64,000 nt of DNA from NCBI GenBank assembly GCA_902595425.1, contig CACJPV010000001.1:1-64000 (forward strand), read 5' to 3'. The stretch is from an uncultured Alphaproteobacteria bacterium. GTDB lineage: Bacteria > Pseudomonadota > Alphaproteobacteria > HIMB59 > GCA-002718135. The translations under genes were made by a program, and so were the position numbers. Positions 3,339-56,607 of the stretch are shown here, in pieces (within the stretch, counting starts at the first letter, position 1; every line of letters begins with the position of its first letter). Below the pieces are notes generated by a model. That model worked only from the letters and a program-made list of their open reading frames with translations, made no database searches and was not told the origin of the DNA.

Positions 3339-5148
3339 TTTCTTTTTTTACAGTCTCTTCCATTTCTAATAACTCCAACCATCGTTGTTCTTTTTCATCT
3401 ATTTCTTTTTCTAATATATTTAATTTTTTTGTTATTTCCTCAAATCTATCTGGATTGCTAATATAAAGATTATTATCTTTCAATTCATTTTTTATTAAAG
3501 AAAGCACATCCTCTTTTTTTGCAATTTCATTCGGAATATTTTCTAATTCAAATTTGAATTTAAAGGAAAGCTTATCGCTAGTTTTACTTCCTTTTACATT
3601 AGATATCTTTTTTCGAGGGCGATTAATTTCTTTTTGAGTTGATTGATGATTAAGAAAATCACTATACCCACCTAGAAACATTGATACTTTACCATCACCT
3701 TCAAAGTGCATAATTTTATTAACAGTTTGGTCTAAAAAATCTCTATCATGAGATACTATTAATAACGTCCCTTTATAATTAGATAGCATTTCAGTTAGCA
3801 AATCCATAGTTTCAAGATCTAGATCATTTGTAGGTTCATCCAAAATAAGTCCCGTTTTAGGATTGGATAAAACTTTTGAAAGCAATAATCTATTTTGTTG
3901 CCCACCTGATAAAGATAAAATTGTATCATTAACCCGTTTTGGATCAAATTGAAAATCTTTCAAATAACTACATACATGTCTTTCTTTTCCTTGCACTGAT
4001 AAATAATCCCCTCCATTTGGAACTAAAATTTCTTTAAGAGATTTGTTTGTATTTAGATCATTTCGGAGTTGATCAAAATAGGAGAACTCTAGATTTTTTT
4101 TAAGCTTAACACTCCCACTTGATGCTTCTAATTCTCCTATCAAAGTTTTCAAAAAAGTTGATTTGCCTGTTCCATTTTTACCAAGAAGTCCTATTCGGTC
4201 GTTTTTAGTAATCTTAATAGATAAATCTTTTAGAATTTTGTTTGATGAATTTGGGTATTGTACTGCAGCTTTATAAAATTCTGCAACAAAACGAGAGTTA
4301 TCGCTTGAAGGCTTGAATACAATAGGTTTCATTGATTTTATTGCCTTACGATAAGAAGACTCATCTTTTTCTAGTTGTTCTTTTAATTGTTTTGCCCTCT
4401 CCAATCTTTTAACATTTCTTTTAACTCTTGCTTTCACTCCTCTTTGTGCCCATTCAACTTCTAAATTGACAAACTGTTTTCTATTTCTTAATTCCCTGGC
4501 TTCTTGATCTAATAATTCTTCAGACCAAGAGTCAAAATTTTTAAATCCTTTAGGACTTACTTTTAAATCACCTCTATCTAGCCAGAAAACTTTATTGGTA
4601 AAATTAGCTAAAAATGTTCTATCGTGGCTAACACATAGCATTACTTTATTTGATTCTTTCAAATGTTTTTCTAACCATTGAATACATTCTAGATCTAAGT
4701 GGTTTGTTGGCTCATCCAGTAACACAATATCTGAGTCAGGTATCAAACTTTTAGCAAGAGCAATTCTTCTTTTTTGTCCTCCAGAAAGACTATCAGTTGG
4801 TGCATGTTTATTAAGATTTAAATTATCACAATAAATATCAATTTTATATTTTTCATCATCACTCAAAACAACTTTCATCATTTCTTCTTCTACTGTTTTA
4901 GATAAATCAATTTCAAAATTCTGAGTGAAGTAAGATATTTGTAAATTAGGGTAACTCCATAACTCACCATTATCTAGATCTTGAGTGCCCATAATTATTT
5001 TCATTAATGTTGTTTTGCCAACACCATTTTTCCCTACTAAGGCAATCAAGTCATTTCTATGGATATTTAAATTTAAATTTTTAAATATTTCCTTCTTTCC
5101 AAAACGTACGTCAACCTCTCTTAGTGAAAATATTAAATCACTAGGCAT
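3331..5148 (-). CDS. uup: ABC-F family ATPase, Uup type
   Basis: This soluble ABC-F protein has two ATPase domains and no membrane segment; the family acts on ribosomes. Domain 1 has Walker A GKNGVGKTT (about residues 39-47), signature LSGGQKRR and Walker B VLLDEPTNHLD. Domain 2 has GKNGTGKST (about 322), LSGGQQNR and LILDEPTNDLD. Between them is a charged linker helix (about 215-275). After residue about 520 comes a basic stretch and then a coiled coil (FEEITKKLNILEKEIDEKEQRW), the C-terminal DNA/RNA-binding extension typical of Uup. At 605 residues it is slightly shorter than E. coli Uup. Tiny ORFs abut it on both sides. Confidence 0.9.
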   Translation of the reverse strand: MPSDLIFSLREVDVRFGKKEIFKNLNLNIHRNDLIALVGKNGVGKTTLMKIIMGTQDLDNGELWSYPNLQISYFTQNFEIDLSKTVEEEMMKVVLSDDEKYKIDIYCDNLNLNKHAPTDSLSGGQKRRIALAKSLIPDSDIVLLDEPTNHLDLECIQWLEKHLKESNKVMLCVSHDRTFLANFTNKVFWLDRGDLKVSPKGFKNFDSWSEELLDQEARELRNRKQFVNLEVEWAQRGVKARVKRNVKRLERAKQLKEQLEKDESSYRKAIKSMKPIVFKPSSDNSRFVAEFYKAAVQYPNSSNKILKDLSIKITKNDRIGLLGKNGTGKSTFLKTLIGELEASSGSVKLKKNLEFSYFDQLRNDLNTNKSLKEILVPNGGDYLSVQGKERHVCSYLKDFQFDPKRVNDTILSLSGGQQNRLLLSKVLSNPKTGLILDEPTNDLDLETMDLLTEMLSNYKGTLLIVSHDRDFLDQTVNKIMHFEGDGKVSMFLGGYSDFLNHQSTQKEINRPRKKISNVKGSKTSDKLSFKFKFELENIPNEIAKKEDVLSLIKNELKDNNLYISNPDRFEEITKKLNILEKEIDEKEQRWLELLEMEETVKKENE

Positions 5149-5262
5149 TTATTTTAAATATAAAAAAAGAAACTCTATTAGGCCCAATATTAAAAATAAA
5201 AAAACTATTCTTTGTAAAGACCATTGGCCTGAAGGAAAAATTAAATTAAAAAATTTTTGCAT
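5149..5262 (-). CDS. Possible 37-residue membrane peptide upstream of uup
   Basis: The frame runs from an ATG at 5262 to a TAA at 5149-5151 that directly touches the uup start codon. The peptide begins MQKFFNLIFPSGQWSLQR and ends with one strong hydrophobic segment (VFLFLILGLIEFLFLYLK). It is preceded by a terminator (5296-5326), so it would be the first gene of the uup operon. No strong ribosome site is seen. In A+T-rich DNA a hydrophobic frame this short can arise by chance, so this is tentative. Confidence 0.4.
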   Translation of the reverse strand: MQKFFNLIFPSGQWSLQRIVFLFLILGLIEFLFLYLK

Positions 5263-5338: not shown

Positions 5339-5704
5339 TTAATCTTTACTGTACATGTAAAATAATACTGCAAAGACAGCAGTAATAACTAAATTTACAT
5401 AAGCTGTTGGACCACCTGCTGCTCCAGTAGCGACATGATAAATTATCATCAATGTCCATAAGGCCCCACCTAAAGAATAAAGCATGCCCATAGATTTTGC
5501 ACTATCACCAAGTGTATCCGGAATTCTCCAAGCCCAAATTCCTATTATGAGCAAGGTTAAACCAAATATTTGTCCTAGAGTTAACATATCTGCCGTTACT
5601 TCCCATCCAGCAGCACTAAAAAATGCTGTGCCTGCAAATATTCCAGCAAGACCATTGATAGCTAAAATTATTGCTTGAACCTTAAATATTGTTCTCAAAT
5701 TCAT
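5339..5704 (-). CDS. Small four-span membrane protein, family member 1
   Basis: The 121-residue protein is almost entirely hydrophobic with four predicted spans (about 7-27, 42-60, 73-92, 100-118). AGGAGG stands 8 bases before the ATG. It is a paralogue of 6288-6659: both have GD(S/A)xKSxGxL(Y/F) in the loop before span 3, a YxxAT motif after it, and (F/Y)xN in span 4. No catalytic motif is seen. It has slightly higher GC and more alanine and glycine than its neighbours. Function unknown; the repeated small membrane proteins around the nuclease gene suggest a local expansion. Confidence 0.75.
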   Translation of the reverse strand: MNLRTIFKVQAIILAINGLAGIFAGTAFFSAAGWEVTADMLTLGQIFGLTLLIIGIWAWRIPDTLGDSAKSMGMLYSLGGALWTLMIIYHVATGAAGGPTAYVNLVITAVFAVLFYMYSKD

Positions 5705-6287: not shown

Positions 6288-6659
6288 TTAAGTATTTTCT
6301 CTACTTGAATAAAAAAATGCTGAAGCCAATACTAAACTTATAATAATATTGAAATATACTGGAAAACCAGAAAATTGATCTGTTGCTGCTTGGTAAGCTG
6401 TAAGTAAAATAAATATACAATGTATTATTCCAAAAAGTTTCCCAAAAGATTTTATTGCATCACCCGCTATATCAGCAGTCCGCCAAGATATAATTGCTAA
6501 ACAAAACCCAAATGTACCAACAGCTTGCACTAAGGTATAAGCTGCTGCATTAGGAGTCAAGCCTCCTCCTTCAAACCACATATCTGGCATAAAGAACGCA
6601 GACAAGGAGCTTAATGCCATATAAACTCCATTAATTTTTAAAATTAGATTAGTACTCAT
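6288..6659 (-). CDS. Small four-span membrane protein, family member 2
   Basis: The 123-residue protein has four hydrophobic spans and no signal peptide. GGAGGT stands before the ATG. It aligns over its length with 5339-5704: GDAIKSFGKLF against GDSAKSMGMLY, and AYQAATDQFSG against IYHVATGAAGG. The conserved GD-x-x-KS loop is the best family signature I can see. It has its own intrinsic terminator, so it is probably transcribed alone. Function unknown. Confidence 0.75.
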   Translation of the reverse strand: MSTNLILKINGVYMALSSLSAFFMPDMWFEGGGLTPNAAAYTLVQAVGTFGFCLAIISWRTADIAGDAIKSFGKLFGIIHCIFILLTAYQAATDQFSGFPVYFNIIISLVLASAFFYSSRENT

Positions 6660-6784
6660 GTTATTACCTCCACTATTTAGATTTAATATACTACAAAGAA
6701 TGATTCACAAATTTATTGATCAATTATTTTAAAACATTTAGGATTATTGAGTAGCCCCCCACTCTATGCTAATAGGAATTTTAC

Positions 6785-6859
6785 GCTGATATAGTATAAT
6801 GGTTATTACAGGCCGTTGGTAACGGTCAGATCCAAGTTCGATTCTCGGTATCAGCACCA
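6785..6859 (+). tRNA. tRNA-Thr (anticodon GGT)
   Basis: A 75-base cloverleaf with encoded CCA. Acceptor stem GCTGATA pairs with TATCAGC. The anticodon stem GGCCG/CGGTC encloses loop TTGGTAA, giving anticodon GGT. The D arm GTAT-AATGGTTA-TTAC keeps A14, GG and A21. The T arm is CCAAG-TTCGATT-CTCGG. The acceptor and anticodon match bacterial tRNA-Thr(GGU). Oddities are a T-T mismatch closing the D stem and an A-C mismatch in the middle of the T stem. Confidence 0.9.
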
Positions 6860-6866
6860 TTTATAT

Positions 6867-6886
6867 AGCACTCTTTAAAGAGTGCT
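6867..6886. terminator. Palindrome between tRNA-Thr and a convergent gene
   Basis: AGCACTCTTTAAAGAGTGCT is a perfect 20-bp palindrome, 7 bases after the tRNA and 10 bases after the stop of the minus-strand gene. Its place between two converging transcripts suggests a shared terminator or processing site. Neither side has a T run. Confidence 0.45.
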
Positions 6887-6896
6887 AAAATAAAGT

Positions 6897-7298
6897 TTAT
6901 AAAGTGAAGTAACGAATTAAAATCACTACCATTGGTATTAATGGTCTGATAGCATTTTTAATATGGTGATCACTACCATCATAGGTTGGTAAGATTTTCA
7001 TGACCATTGCCATATTGTAAAGGAAAGCTAAAATAGTAAATACAAAAATTGCTCCAAATATTTCATTTGCTGATGTTACGCCTGCTATTCCAAACAATGC
7101 AAAAATTGCCATAACAATACATCCGGTCATCAAAAAGCCTAAAGGTCTACCCATATAAGCTGCCTGAATATTATCAAATCCAAAACTGTTTTGAGCAAAG
7201 TTCTTATTAAATGCAAAATTTAATCCAAAAAAACCACCGAATAAAATTAGAAAAACATGACAAAGAAAGGGTATCATGCCTCCAGCTGATTCAATCAT
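6897..7298 (-). CDS. Small membrane protein, about four spans
   Basis: The 133-residue hydrophobic protein has spans at about 8-28, 54-74, 80-100 and 114-132. A perfect AGGAGG precedes the ATG, so expression is likely. Loops carry NKNFAQNSFGFDN and MKILPTYDGSDHH. Size and layout resemble the proteins at 5339 and 6288, but I see no shared motif strong enough to call it the same family. Unknown function; nothing suggests a catalytic role. Confidence 0.7.
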   Translation of the reverse strand: MIESAGGMIPFLCHVFLILFGGFFGLNFAFNKNFAQNSFGFDNIQAAYMGRPLGFLMTGCIVMAIFALFGIAGVTSANEIFGAIFVFTILAFLYNMAMVMKILPTYDGSDHHIKNAIRPLIPMVVILIRYFTL

Positions 7299-7369
7299 AA
7301 AACCTCCTATATTTTATTTATTAATTATTATAGGCTATGAAATTATGATTCAATCTAATTATCAAAGAT

Positions 7370-7432
7370 CGAGTCTGGCATTTGTGCAAAGGTAGAAATC
7401 GGAAAAAAAATACCAGACTCGTTAAGCCTTTT
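7370..7432 (+). ncRNA. Candidate pseudoknotted RNA element upstream of GST gene
   Basis: A perfect 9-bp stem (CGAGTCTGG 7370-7378 with CCAGACTCG 7413-7421) closes a 34-base loop. The loop holds AAAGG (7388-7392), which can pair with CCTTT (7427-7431) just 3' of the stem, giving an H-type pseudoknot. The element lies 89 bases upstream of the GST start, in a gap with no ORF (7299-7520). A cis-regulatory RNA or small RNA is possible; the drawn structure works on the plus strand. No known class was recognised with certainty. Confidence 0.4.
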
Positions 7433-7520
7433 AGAGAATTTTATTACATAAATAAGCACTTTGCTTTATTGCTTAATAAATAAAGAAAAAAATCCAATTT
7501 TAAGATAGAATCGAGATACA

Positions 7521-8168
7521 ATGATTAAAATTTATTATAGTCATACACCTTTCTGGAGAGCTGAAGTGCTAAGAGTATCTTTATTTATAAGCAATACTCC
7601 TTTTGAGGATGTAAGGATTACGAGAGAAGAATTTATTAATATGATTAAAACTGGCTATTTACCTAATGGAAAAAAAGTGCCATTTCATCAGTTGCCTGTA
7701 ATAGAAGTAGATGGTGAGATTATTGGTCAGACAGGTGCCATAGCAAGATATTGTGGTAAGATTTCTAATTTATATTCCAATGATATCACTAATGCTGCAA
7801 AAATTGATCAGATTATAGATGCAGCAACAGATATAACAAATTTAGTAAGCCCAACAATCAGAGAAAAGGATGAAGAAAAAAAAATAGAAGATAGACTGTT
7901 ATTAAAAAATAAACTTTTACCAAGATGGTTTACGTATCTAGAAAACATTTTATCAGAAAGTACATCTGATTGGTTTGTAGAAAATAAGATGACTATTGCT
8001 GATATTGCTATGTGGCGATTACTTGGATGGCTTATATCTGGAATTATTGATGGTATACCTACCACAATAGTTGATAACTATCCAAAATTAAAAAATATTC
8101 ATACTAACGTTCATCACCACCCTAAAGTTCAAGAGTGGATGCTCAAAACGTATGGGAAAGAAATCTGA
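7521..8168 (+). CDS. Glutathione S-transferase-like protein
   Basis: The 215-residue protein begins with the thioredoxin-fold glutathione-binding domain (KIYYSHTPFWRAEVLRVSL), including the cis-proline region HQLPVIEVDG and the QTGAIARYCG motif that holds the glutathione gamma-glutamyl group. A helical C-terminal domain with the N-capping motif MTIADIAMWRLL follows. This layout fits sigma-like/Nu-type GSTs, which conjugate or reduce electrophiles in the cytoplasm. The stop is 3 bases before the pdxJ start, so the two are probably co-transcribed. A possible structured RNA lies upstream (7370-7432). Confidence 0.88.
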   Translation: MIKIYYSHTPFWRAEVLRVSLFISNTPFEDVRITREEFINMIKTGYLPNGKKVPFHQLPVIEVDGEIIGQTGAIARYCGKISNLYSNDITNAAKIDQIIDAATDITNLVSPTIREKDEEKKIEDRLLLKNKLLPRWFTYLENILSESTSDWFVENKMTIADIAMWRLLGWLISGIIDGIPTTIVDNYPKLKNIHTNVHHHPKVQEWMLKTYGKEI

Positions 8169-8171
8169 TTG

Positions 8172-8906
8172 ATGACTACTCTTAGTGTAAATGTAAATAA
8201 GTTTGCCTTAATAAGAAATGCAAGAGGAGCAGATCTTCCAAACTTACATAATATTAGTAAAAAATGTATTGAATTTGGTGCTGACGGTATAACTGTTCAC
8301 CCAAGACCGGATGAAAGGCATGCAAAATTTTCAGATTTGGAAATACTAAAAAATCTCACTAGTGAATTTGAAAATATTGAGTTTAATATTGAAGGATATC
8401 CTTCATATGATTTTATCCAAAAAGTAATTACTGTAAAGCCAGATCAAGTAACGTTAGTCCCTGACCCTCCAGATGCACTTACATCATCATTCGGTTGGGA
8501 TTGTGAAAAAAATAAAGATGTTCTGAAAGAAGTTATTAAGAAATTTAAAGACAACAACATCCGTGTTTCAATTTTCATCAATCCATCTATTGATACACTT
8601 TCTAACTTAGAAATTATTAACCCAGATAGAGTAGAATTATACACTTATGATTATGCAAAAAATTATCATAATGACAAAATATTAGCAATTGAACCCTATG
8701 TTGAAGTAACTAAATATTTAGAAAAAGAATTTCCCAACATTGAGTTGAATGCTGGGCATGATTTAAATCTGGATAATTTAGACTTTATACTAAAAAATAT
8801 TCCTAGAATAAAAGAGGTATCGATTGGTCATGCGCTGGTTTGTGATGCAATCGATTATGGACTTAAAGAAACAGTTAATAGATACAAACAAATAGCCCAA
8901 AGATAA
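8172..8906 (+). CDS. pdxJ: Pyridoxine 5'-phosphate synthase (PdxJ)
   Basis: PdxJ condenses 1-deoxyxylulose 5-phosphate and 3-amino-2-oxopropyl phosphate to make pyridoxine phosphate, the vitamin B6 precursor. I chose the ATG at 8172, not the TTG before it, giving 244 residues. Motifs: LSVNVNKFALIRNARG, GADGITVHPRPDERH, FNIEGYP, QVTLVPDPPDALTSSFGWD, VELYT and LNAGHDLNLDNL...VSIGHAL. The start reads N-V-N-K where most proteobacterial PdxJ proteins read N-I-D-H, and the whole sequence resembles the Bacteroidota subtype as I remember it. That suggests transfer. It lies between GST and LysE genes, 1 base from the latter. Confidence 0.9.
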   Translation: MTTLSVNVNKFALIRNARGADLPNLHNISKKCIEFGADGITVHPRPDERHAKFSDLEILKNLTSEFENIEFNIEGYPSYDFIQKVITVKPDQVTLVPDPPDALTSSFGWDCEKNKDVLKEVIKKFKDNNIRVSIFINPSIDTLSNLEIINPDRVELYTYDYAKNYHNDKILAIEPYVEVTKYLEKEFPNIELNAGHDLNLDNLDFILKNIPRIKEVSIGHALVCDAIDYGLKETVNRYKQIAQR

Positions 8907-8907
8907 T

Positions 8908-9531
8908 ATGAATAATTTATTTTGGGTACAATTTGCTGCAATCTGTATAGTTGGCGCTATGTCACCAGGCCCATCTATGGCTTTAATTATTAGAAATTCT
9001 ATAAAGTATGGACGCCTATCAGGAGTATTATTTTCACTAGGTCATGCGATAGGCATAGGGATTTATGCGACAGTATCGGTAGCTGGATTACAAATCATCT
9101 TAATCAATAATATATTCTTATTTAATGCTATTCAATTTTGTGGAAGTGTATTTTTATTAATTCTTGGCATCCTCTTTTTGCGCGACACTGAGCATAAGCT
9201 TTCAATTGAAGGTGAGAAAAAAAATGTTAATTCTTTTATGCAAGGATTTGCAATCTCTATTTTAAATCCTAAAATTTTAATTTGGTTTGCTGCTATATTT
9301 TCACAATTTATTGAAATTTCTTCTACAAATTTTGTCAAATTAGGCATGGTACTCATTGCTTCATCTATAGATGGGTTGTGGTACATCATATTGACAATTG
9401 TAGTTACAGGGTTCGGGTTAAAGCAATTTCTAGAAAATAATGCAAATATTATTCAAAAAATTTCAGGCATTGTATTAATATTCATATCAATACTTATTTT
9501 GTATAAGACTCTAAGCCCATACTTCTTCTAG
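8908..9531 (+). CDS. LysE/RhtB-family amino-acid exporter
   Basis: The 207-residue inner-membrane protein has about six spans. It carries the family signature near the N-terminus, GAMSPGPSMALIIRNSIKYGR, and then GVLFSLGHAIGIGIYA. A typical mid-protein string is FAISILNPKILIWFAAIFSQF, with the conserved NPK. These proteins export amino acids or related compounds by proton antiport. It starts 1 base after pdxJ. Its last 21 bases overlap the convergent dipeptidase gene. Substrate cannot be read from sequence. Confidence 0.88.
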   Translation: MNNLFWVQFAAICIVGAMSPGPSMALIIRNSIKYGRLSGVLFSLGHAIGIGIYATVSVAGLQIILINNIFLFNAIQFCGSVFLLILGILFLRDTEHKLSIEGEKKNVNSFMQGFAISILNPKILIWFAAIFSQFIEISSTNFVKLGMVLIASSIDGLWYIILTIVVTGFGLKQFLENNANIIQKISGIVLIFISILILYKTLSPYFF

Positions 9532-20505: not shown

Positions 20506-20534
20506 TTGACTACCAAAACGTTTTGGTATTTAAT
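20506..20534 (+). promoter_or_regulatory. aglE promoter with operator in the spacer
   Basis: TTGACT (20506-20511) and TTTAAT (20529-20534) are 17 bases apart, each one mismatch from consensus. The spacer is filled by the first operator. The same arrangement recurs at 27845. Confidence 0.75.
20511..20528. promoter_or_regulatory. LacI-type operator 1
   Basis: TACCAAAACGTTTTGGTA is a perfect 18-bp palindrome with the central CpG of LacI/CcpA-type sites. It lies between the -35 and -10 boxes of the aglE promoter. Confidence 0.85.
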
Positions 20535-20553
20535 TTCCAAAACGTTTTGGAAA
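20534..20553. promoter_or_regulatory. LacI-type operator 2
   Basis: TTTCCAAAACGTTTTGGAAA is a perfect 20-bp palindrome, 24 bp centre to centre from operator 1. It covers the expected transcription start and lies 24 bases before the start codon. Confidence 0.85.
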
Positions 20554-21899: not shown

Positions 21900-21934
21900 A
21901 TTTCAGGCGAACAAATTTCTTGTTCGCCTGAAAT
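21900..21934 (+). terminator. Hairpin between aglE and aglF
   Basis: A perfect 15-bp stem (21900-21914 with 21920-21934; core TTTCAGGCGAACAA) has a 5-base loop. It starts 9 bases after the aglE stop and lacks a T run, so partial termination or 3' protection of the aglE message is likely. Confidence 0.65.
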
Positions 21935-56602: not shown

Positions 56603-56607
56603 AATTA

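Follow-up and report, generated by a model that had tools for sequence, protein, structure and literature searches.

A lineage-restricted hairpin, conserved as a putative minus-strand RNA, precedes a small membrane-protein gene in AEGEAN-169/HIMB59-type bacteria

In the window (the whole 64,000-nucleotide stretch of DNA that was analyzed), a gap of 222 bases (positions 7299 to 7520) separates two divergent genes. On the minus strand lies orf133, and on the plus strand the series GST-pdxJ-LysE starts at position 7521. The gap had been described, from the letters alone, as free of open reading frames, and this was confirmed: it contains no ORF of at least 50 amino acids, and stops interrupt all six frames. 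Searches of Pfam and NCBIfam assigned orf133 to no family; the names Tetraspanin and DUF4064 came up weakly, far below the cut-offs. A structure model of its product, which is of low confidence (mean pLDDT, 58), predicts helices of membrane length. Furthermore, orf133 is one of three neighboring minus-strand ORFs for small membrane proteins (5339 to 5704, 6288 to 6659, and 6897 to 7298). No Pfam or NCBIfam family was found for any of the three, and the first two look alike by eye.

Within the gap, CGAGTCTGG (7370 to 7378) and CCAGACTCG (7413 to 7421) are perfectly complementary and form a 9-bp stem. The letters and coordinates given for this stem in the sequence-only reading, and for AAAGG in its loop and CCTTT on its 3' side, were correct. 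Because none of 1,000 dinucleotide shuffles of the gap gave a comparable perfect stem (at least 9 bp, at least 5 G/C, loop of 3 to 60), we conclude that the stem is real and not a product of chance. If A/T-only stems were allowed, 219 of the 1,000 shuffles yielded a qualifying stem, and the whole 64-kb window contains eight stems under the same definition (at least 9 bp, at least 5 G/C, loop of 3 to 60). A perfect 15-bp stem with a loop of 5 (21900 to 21934) and a perfect 14-bp stem with a loop of 10 (20513 to 20550) are the longest G+C-containing stems in the window. The arms of the hairpin studied here extend to 14 columns; the sole mismatch, 7379/7412, is a C.A when the plus strand is read but pairs as U.G on the minus strand. 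The features of the region are listed in Table 1.

Table 1. Coordinates of the hairpin, its parts, and the neighboring features in the window
Feature	Position	Strand	Basis or occurrence
Conserved hairpin as modeled	7368..7423	-	Covariance model R1, 58 positions
12-bp core helix, 5' arm (minus-strand reading)	7408..7419	-	Minus-strand pairing retained in 12 of 13 parsimony changes
12-bp core helix, 3' arm (minus-strand reading)	7372..7383	-	Alignment and parsimony
Loop, pyrimidine-rich on the minus strand (UUUUUCCGAUUUCUACCUUUGCAC)	7384..7407	-	23 to 27 nt across loci
Two outer pairs, fraying	7370..7371 with 7420..7421	.	Not preserved in relatives
AAAGG, proposed pseudoknot strand, within the loop	7388..7392	+	11 of 13 loci
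CCTTT, proposed pseudoknot partner, not conserved	7427..7431	+	6 of 13 loci, window's clade only
orf133, 133-aa membrane ORF preceded by the hairpin	6897..7298	-	No Pfam or NCBIfam family
AGGAGG, likely ribosome-binding site of orf133	7303..7308	-	Direct reading; similar in relatives
TTGAAT (7353-7348) and TATAAT (7332-7327), possible orf133 promoter between hairpin and gene	7327..7353	-	Putative
TCTAAA, weak box resembling a -10 element, adjacent to the hairpin on its 5' side	7430..7435	-	Putative; TATAAT in L117, TATAAA in L118
TAGAAT, putative box near the GST start	7506..7511	+	Kept in most relatives

The occurrence of the hairpin was analyzed with a covariance model (R1) made from alignment A2, which comprises eight rows picked from the distinct hairpins then known and leaves out the near-identical L053 to L055. 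R1 matched 16 of the 162 genomes of the order (E ≤ 2.5e-7), 14 of them from the window's genus and two (G137 and G138) from another genus of the family. In a sample of 385 genomes of the class, the window's own genome was the sole match. A search with the arm pattern detected 13 of 102 congeneric genomes, and the reversed control pattern detected none. Two weaker order-wide matches (G113, E 0.015; G077, E 0.084) lack an orf133 context and were not counted. Each genome had a single covariance-model match at E < 1e-6, and on this basis a dispersed repeat or a mobile hairpin was rejected. The relatives retrieved with the GST query are single-cell genomes and MAGs and probably belong to the AEGEAN-169/HIMB59 group. 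According to a part of the text of PMC10308909, AEGEAN-169 and HIMB59 are two names for one clade. The hairpin is lineage restricted.

A plain MAFFT alignment (A3) misplaced the arms of rows with short loops, and the model alignment A4 was used instead. It contains 13 of the 16 hairpin loci (11 of the 13 rows are distinct); G042, G099, and G121, whose hairpins equal others in the set, were left out. The relatives show a common 12-bp core helix that closes a loop of slightly varying length. In A4, which was fitted to the structure and hence leans towards it, 95.5% of the pair cells are standard, compared with 26 to 41% in slid versions. Ten of 500 shuffles equaled the covariation score, and 9 of 500 reached the count of cells changed on both sides, while the number of pairs changed on both sides (170/500) and the number of pair types (442/500) did not stand out. 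Using RNAalifold on the hairpin plus leader, the core helix was the only structure returned. Four diverged loci retain 83 to 100% identity to the window in the arms, 50 to 83% in the loop, and 54 to 69% in the flanks, and in three of the four the loop is more conserved than the flanks. In one locus of the other genus (L121), a G.A mismatch interrupts the core.

The changes in the core reveal the strand. Twelve core pairs in nine distinct arm sets correspond to 108 cells, of which 93 are Watson-Crick, 14 are G.U on the minus strand, and one is of another kind; none is G.U on the plus strand (i.e., A.C on the minus strand). By parsimony, 12 of 13 core changes occurred between Watson-Crick and minus-strand G.U pairs (two-sided sign test on the 12 changes, P = 0.0005, subject to a tree that was built from the hairpin alignment itself). 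This bias was first noticed on rows that are also in A2; L120 and L121 were found later, using R1. The two outer pairs lean the opposite way: their 18 cells comprise 11 Watson-Crick pairs, one minus-strand G.U, four A.C (G.U on the plus strand), and two others. For the most diverged congener, L097 (G081), the minus strand folds with -19.2 kcal/mol, which none of 200 shuffles reached; for the plus strand, the value is -5.5 kcal/mol, which 109 of 200 shuffles attained. Since the core changes are compatible with pairing on the minus strand but disrupt it on the plus strand, the comparison shows a helix that, as judged from its substitutions, is under selection as minus-strand RNA, and the strand to which it was first assigned appears to be wrong. 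Thus, of the earlier claim of a structured RNA on the plus strand, the structure, its maintenance by selection, and the compatible stem changes stood, but the strand did not. Since the loop length varies by single bases, the hairpin is neither coding nor a rigid operator. A coding explanation was rejected because stem-loop lengths differ by single bases and because none of the gap's six frames is free of stops.

In all 16 hairpin genomes of the order, the hairpin is located 26 to 69 nt upstream of the orf133 start and in the same direction. The distance to the ATG was measured in 13 loci, with G042, G099, and G121 taken from coordinates; it is 61 to 69 nt in 12 of the 13 loci and 26 nt in L118. 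In G084, the contig ends inside orf133. The sequence-only reading had placed the element upstream of GST-pdxJ. This link fails, because the hairpin occurs without GST, and GST occurs without the hairpin where orf133 is absent. In G137 and G138 (L120 and L121), hairpin and orf133 are accompanied by a tRNA fragment and a cupredoxin gene in the place of GST (the cupredoxin ORF was read in G137). At L060, a GST 89% identical to that of the window has other neighbors, no orf133, and no hairpin. We conclude that the hairpin belongs with orf133 and not with GST-pdxJ.

There are also orf133 genes without the hairpin. Twelve of 25 orthologues with at least 66% identity lack it, and it is missing from G097, whose orf133 is 90% identical to that of the window. 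At L079 / L130 (G097:C16), orf133 is found in a different neighborhood, with the tRNA-end-like TGGTGCCACAACC just upstream. In G011, G099, and G121 (L091, L090, and L086), orf133 is 68 to 70% identical to that of the window; in the hairpin region, however, they hardly differ from G001 (L077), whose orf133 is 99% identical to that of the window. Compared with G001, this pattern suggests that an allele replacement may have taken place inside orf133 or at its start.

Our favored reading, to which we assign a probability of about 50%, is that of a family-restricted minus-strand RNA stem-loop that is located within the orf133 leader or at its 5' end and acts in cis. The relatives show a helix conserved on one strand, together with a constant place and orientation before one gene (16 of 16 genomes), two features expected of a leader RNA. 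We infer that the hairpin is transcribed and that the transcript runs into orf133, and the regulatory steps would be as follows. Located most likely at, or close to, the start of a longer orf133 transcript, the 12-bp helix would present the pyrimidine-rich loop of 23 to 27 nt, in which ACCUUUGC is the best-kept part and is mostly retained. The loop could be contacted by a protein or by another RNA, and the hairpin could set the stability or the translation of the orf133 transcript. Pairing of the loop with the orf133 Shine-Dalgarno sequence, which by eye looked plausible in the window and L118, was rejected after comparison of the 13 loci with shuffled loops (P = 0.20 to 1.0).

Promoter-like boxes are relevant to this leader reading in two ways. 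In L118, where the hairpin is nearest to the ATG, the intervening box is gone and TATAAA directly precedes the hairpin; L117 has TATAAT at the same place, and the box of the window is weak. The boxes of L118 and L117 would have transcription begin at the base of the hairpin. On the other hand, promoter-like boxes between hairpin and ATG are also present in hairpin-less orf133 orthologues, and because of this resemblance the orf133 mRNA need not contain the hairpin. The 12 of 25 orthologues without hairpin count against a leader, and at L120 and L121 a tRNA fragment lies 5' of the hairpin, with no evident promoter.

The arms could alternatively be an inverted repeat acting as DNA, namely, an operator between divergent promoters for a regulator of orf133 and/or GST. 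The position between divergent genes, with promoter-like boxes on both sides, is consistent with an operator, and so is AGTCTG, the outer half of one arm, which is invariant in 10 of 10 rows of A3. However, double-stranded DNA offers no reason for the core changes to favor one strand, the spacing of the half-sites varies by up to 4 bp, the element is present in a single copy per genome, and two of the hairpins have a divergent gene other than GST. We therefore regard an operator as unlikely.

Similarly doubtful is a separate small RNA, which would be transcribed from its own promoter at about 7430 to 7470, end before orf133, and act in trans via its loop. Its own promoter could be represented by the -10-like boxes that immediately precede the hairpin in several loci (such as those of L117 and L118), orf133 appears to possess boxes of its own further downstream, and the conservation of the loop above the flanks in three of the four diverged loci would suit a trans-acting RNA. 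However, neither strand carries a U-tract after the hairpin, the terminator scan gave no site at this position, the place before orf133 is constant, and at L120 and L121 the upstream region is replaced by a tRNA fragment. An intrinsic terminator was rejected as an explanation for the hairpin itself: it has a 24-nt loop and no T-run and is absent from the terminator sites listed for 6500 to 9500.

A tRNA gene is also found in the surroundings of orf133. The window and many relatives, both those that carry the hairpin and those that lack it, have tRNA-Thr(GGT) near the 3' end of orf133. In G137 (L128, G137:C6:56500-64500), a full tRNA-Thr(GGT) is present at 1847 to 1921 of the locus, and its 3' end is repeated directly at 4513 to 4563 (identical over 51 nt) and at 5130 to 5180 (86%). 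The copy at 5130 to 5180 abuts the hairpin, and the last two copies bracket 617 bp that hold only orf133 and the hairpin. Likewise, in G138:C6 the tRNA end occurs twice, at 56607 and 57224, 617 bp apart. The tRNA-Thr repeats of G137 also bound a 2.6-kb insert with three ORFs, for which Pfam revealed no family and no recombinase. These repeats suggest that the 3' end of tRNA-Thr(GGT) is an insertion hotspot. It could be speculated that orf133 and the hairpin are a minimal cassette inserted at this 3' end, with the hairpin as part of the cassette end. The hairpin would then be folded from one DNA strand and serve as a recombination or replication signal in these AEGEAN-169/HIMB59-type bacteria. 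Such a cassette would account for the tRNA-end repeats of G137 as well as for the G.T/G.U bias toward one strand. Nevertheless, no second tRNA 3' end was found in the window, whose hairpin region is kept without any repeat; the other repeat carries no hairpin (one match per genome, E < 1e-6); and the insert ORFs of G137 are without a Pfam family. We consider insertion as a cassette, and equally a role of the hairpin as a DNA signal, to be quite improbable.

The sequence-only reading had also proposed an H-type pseudoknot, in which the AAAGG of the loop pairs with CCTTT. In the window and five near relatives this 5-bp pairing is possible, but the partner is missing in 7 of 13 loci: with CCTTT sought within 30 nt after the hairpin, five loci have AAAGG without it and two have neither motif. 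In L116, L117, and L105, the best loop/flank pairing found was the A/T-rich GTAAT/ATTAC, which is not the best in the window's clade, L118, or the other genus (L120 and L121); L106 has the longer pairing GTAATTAAAT/ATTTAATTAC. Thus, when covariation and intactness of the stem were checked in near relatives, the stem passed and the pseudoknot did not. A search of the whole window against Rfam at the gathering score returned tRNA only, as did a search of seven related loci, and at E ≤ 10 the region from 7290 to 7540 gave two chance microRNA matches far under the cut-offs. The box near the GST start would place the GST promoter downstream of the hairpin. With the pairing partner absent from 7 of 13 loci, the core changes favoring the other strand, no Rfam match, hairpin and GST each occurring without the other, and a box that would exclude the hairpin from the GST transcript, a plus-strand H-type pseudoknot riboswitch ahead of GST-pdxJ is very improbable.

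Stem-loops in the 5' leaders of bacterial mRNAs have a long stem at the 5' end, upstream of the ribosome-binding site. The hairpin of the window resembles them in its long stem, its likely position at a 5' end, and its location upstream of the ribosome-binding site. Integron attC sites are folded from a single strand of a gene cassette, and such folding would also explain the strand bias. Unlike attC, the hairpin is single-copy and no recombinase was seen adjoining; GTTAAGC at 7421 to 7427, which is similar to the GTTRRRY of attC, is not kept in diverged relatives.

With SAM-II and SAM-V, as described in parts of PMC6061858, the window's hairpin has in common a short RNA (approximately 55 nt) that precedes a gene of a marine alphaproteobacterium and a possible pairing of the loop with the 3' side. 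It differs from them in that the pseudoknot is unconserved, the plus strand is disfavored, and no Rfam family matches, so that the resemblance suggested by the sequence-only reading is not supported. Moreover, the adjoining genes are orf133 and GST rather than a methionine gene, and the hairpin keeps the above-described distance from the orf133 ATG.

For "Candidatus Pelagibacter ubique," Meyer et al. 2009 (PMC2704228) describe, in the sections available, an ffh motif and four weaker motifs. According to the same sections, these are single hairpins with compatible changes that lie in long intergenic regions before a gene, and one of them is a single bulged hairpin whose lower part is also an inverted repeat (PMC2704228). 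The element of the window is like these, as far as those sections describe them, in being a conserved hairpin in a long intergenic region before a gene of a streamlined, AT-rich marine alphaproteobacterium. By the same description it is set apart by lineage and by genes (ffh, rhtB, and others in Pelagibacter) (PMC2704228). It had no Rfam match, although not all of the Pelagibacter motifs are necessarily in Rfam, and R1 detected nothing else in the 385 genomes of the class. Among the papers listed on AEGEAN-169, HIMB59 riboswitches, and Pelagibacter structured RNAs, no title or abstract opening mentions the hairpin. Judged by the portions of the Pelagibacter study considered here (PMC2704228), the hairpin joins a known kind, the conserved intergenic RNA hairpin. 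If our reading is true, it adds one more structured RNA that is restricted to a lineage and has a clear host gene, an uncharacterized membrane protein gene, to the few known in abundant streamlined marine alphaproteobacteria. In addition, it illustrates that G.U bias allows the strand of a hairpin to be deduced; here, this bias reassigns the element from GST-pdxJ to the divergent gene.
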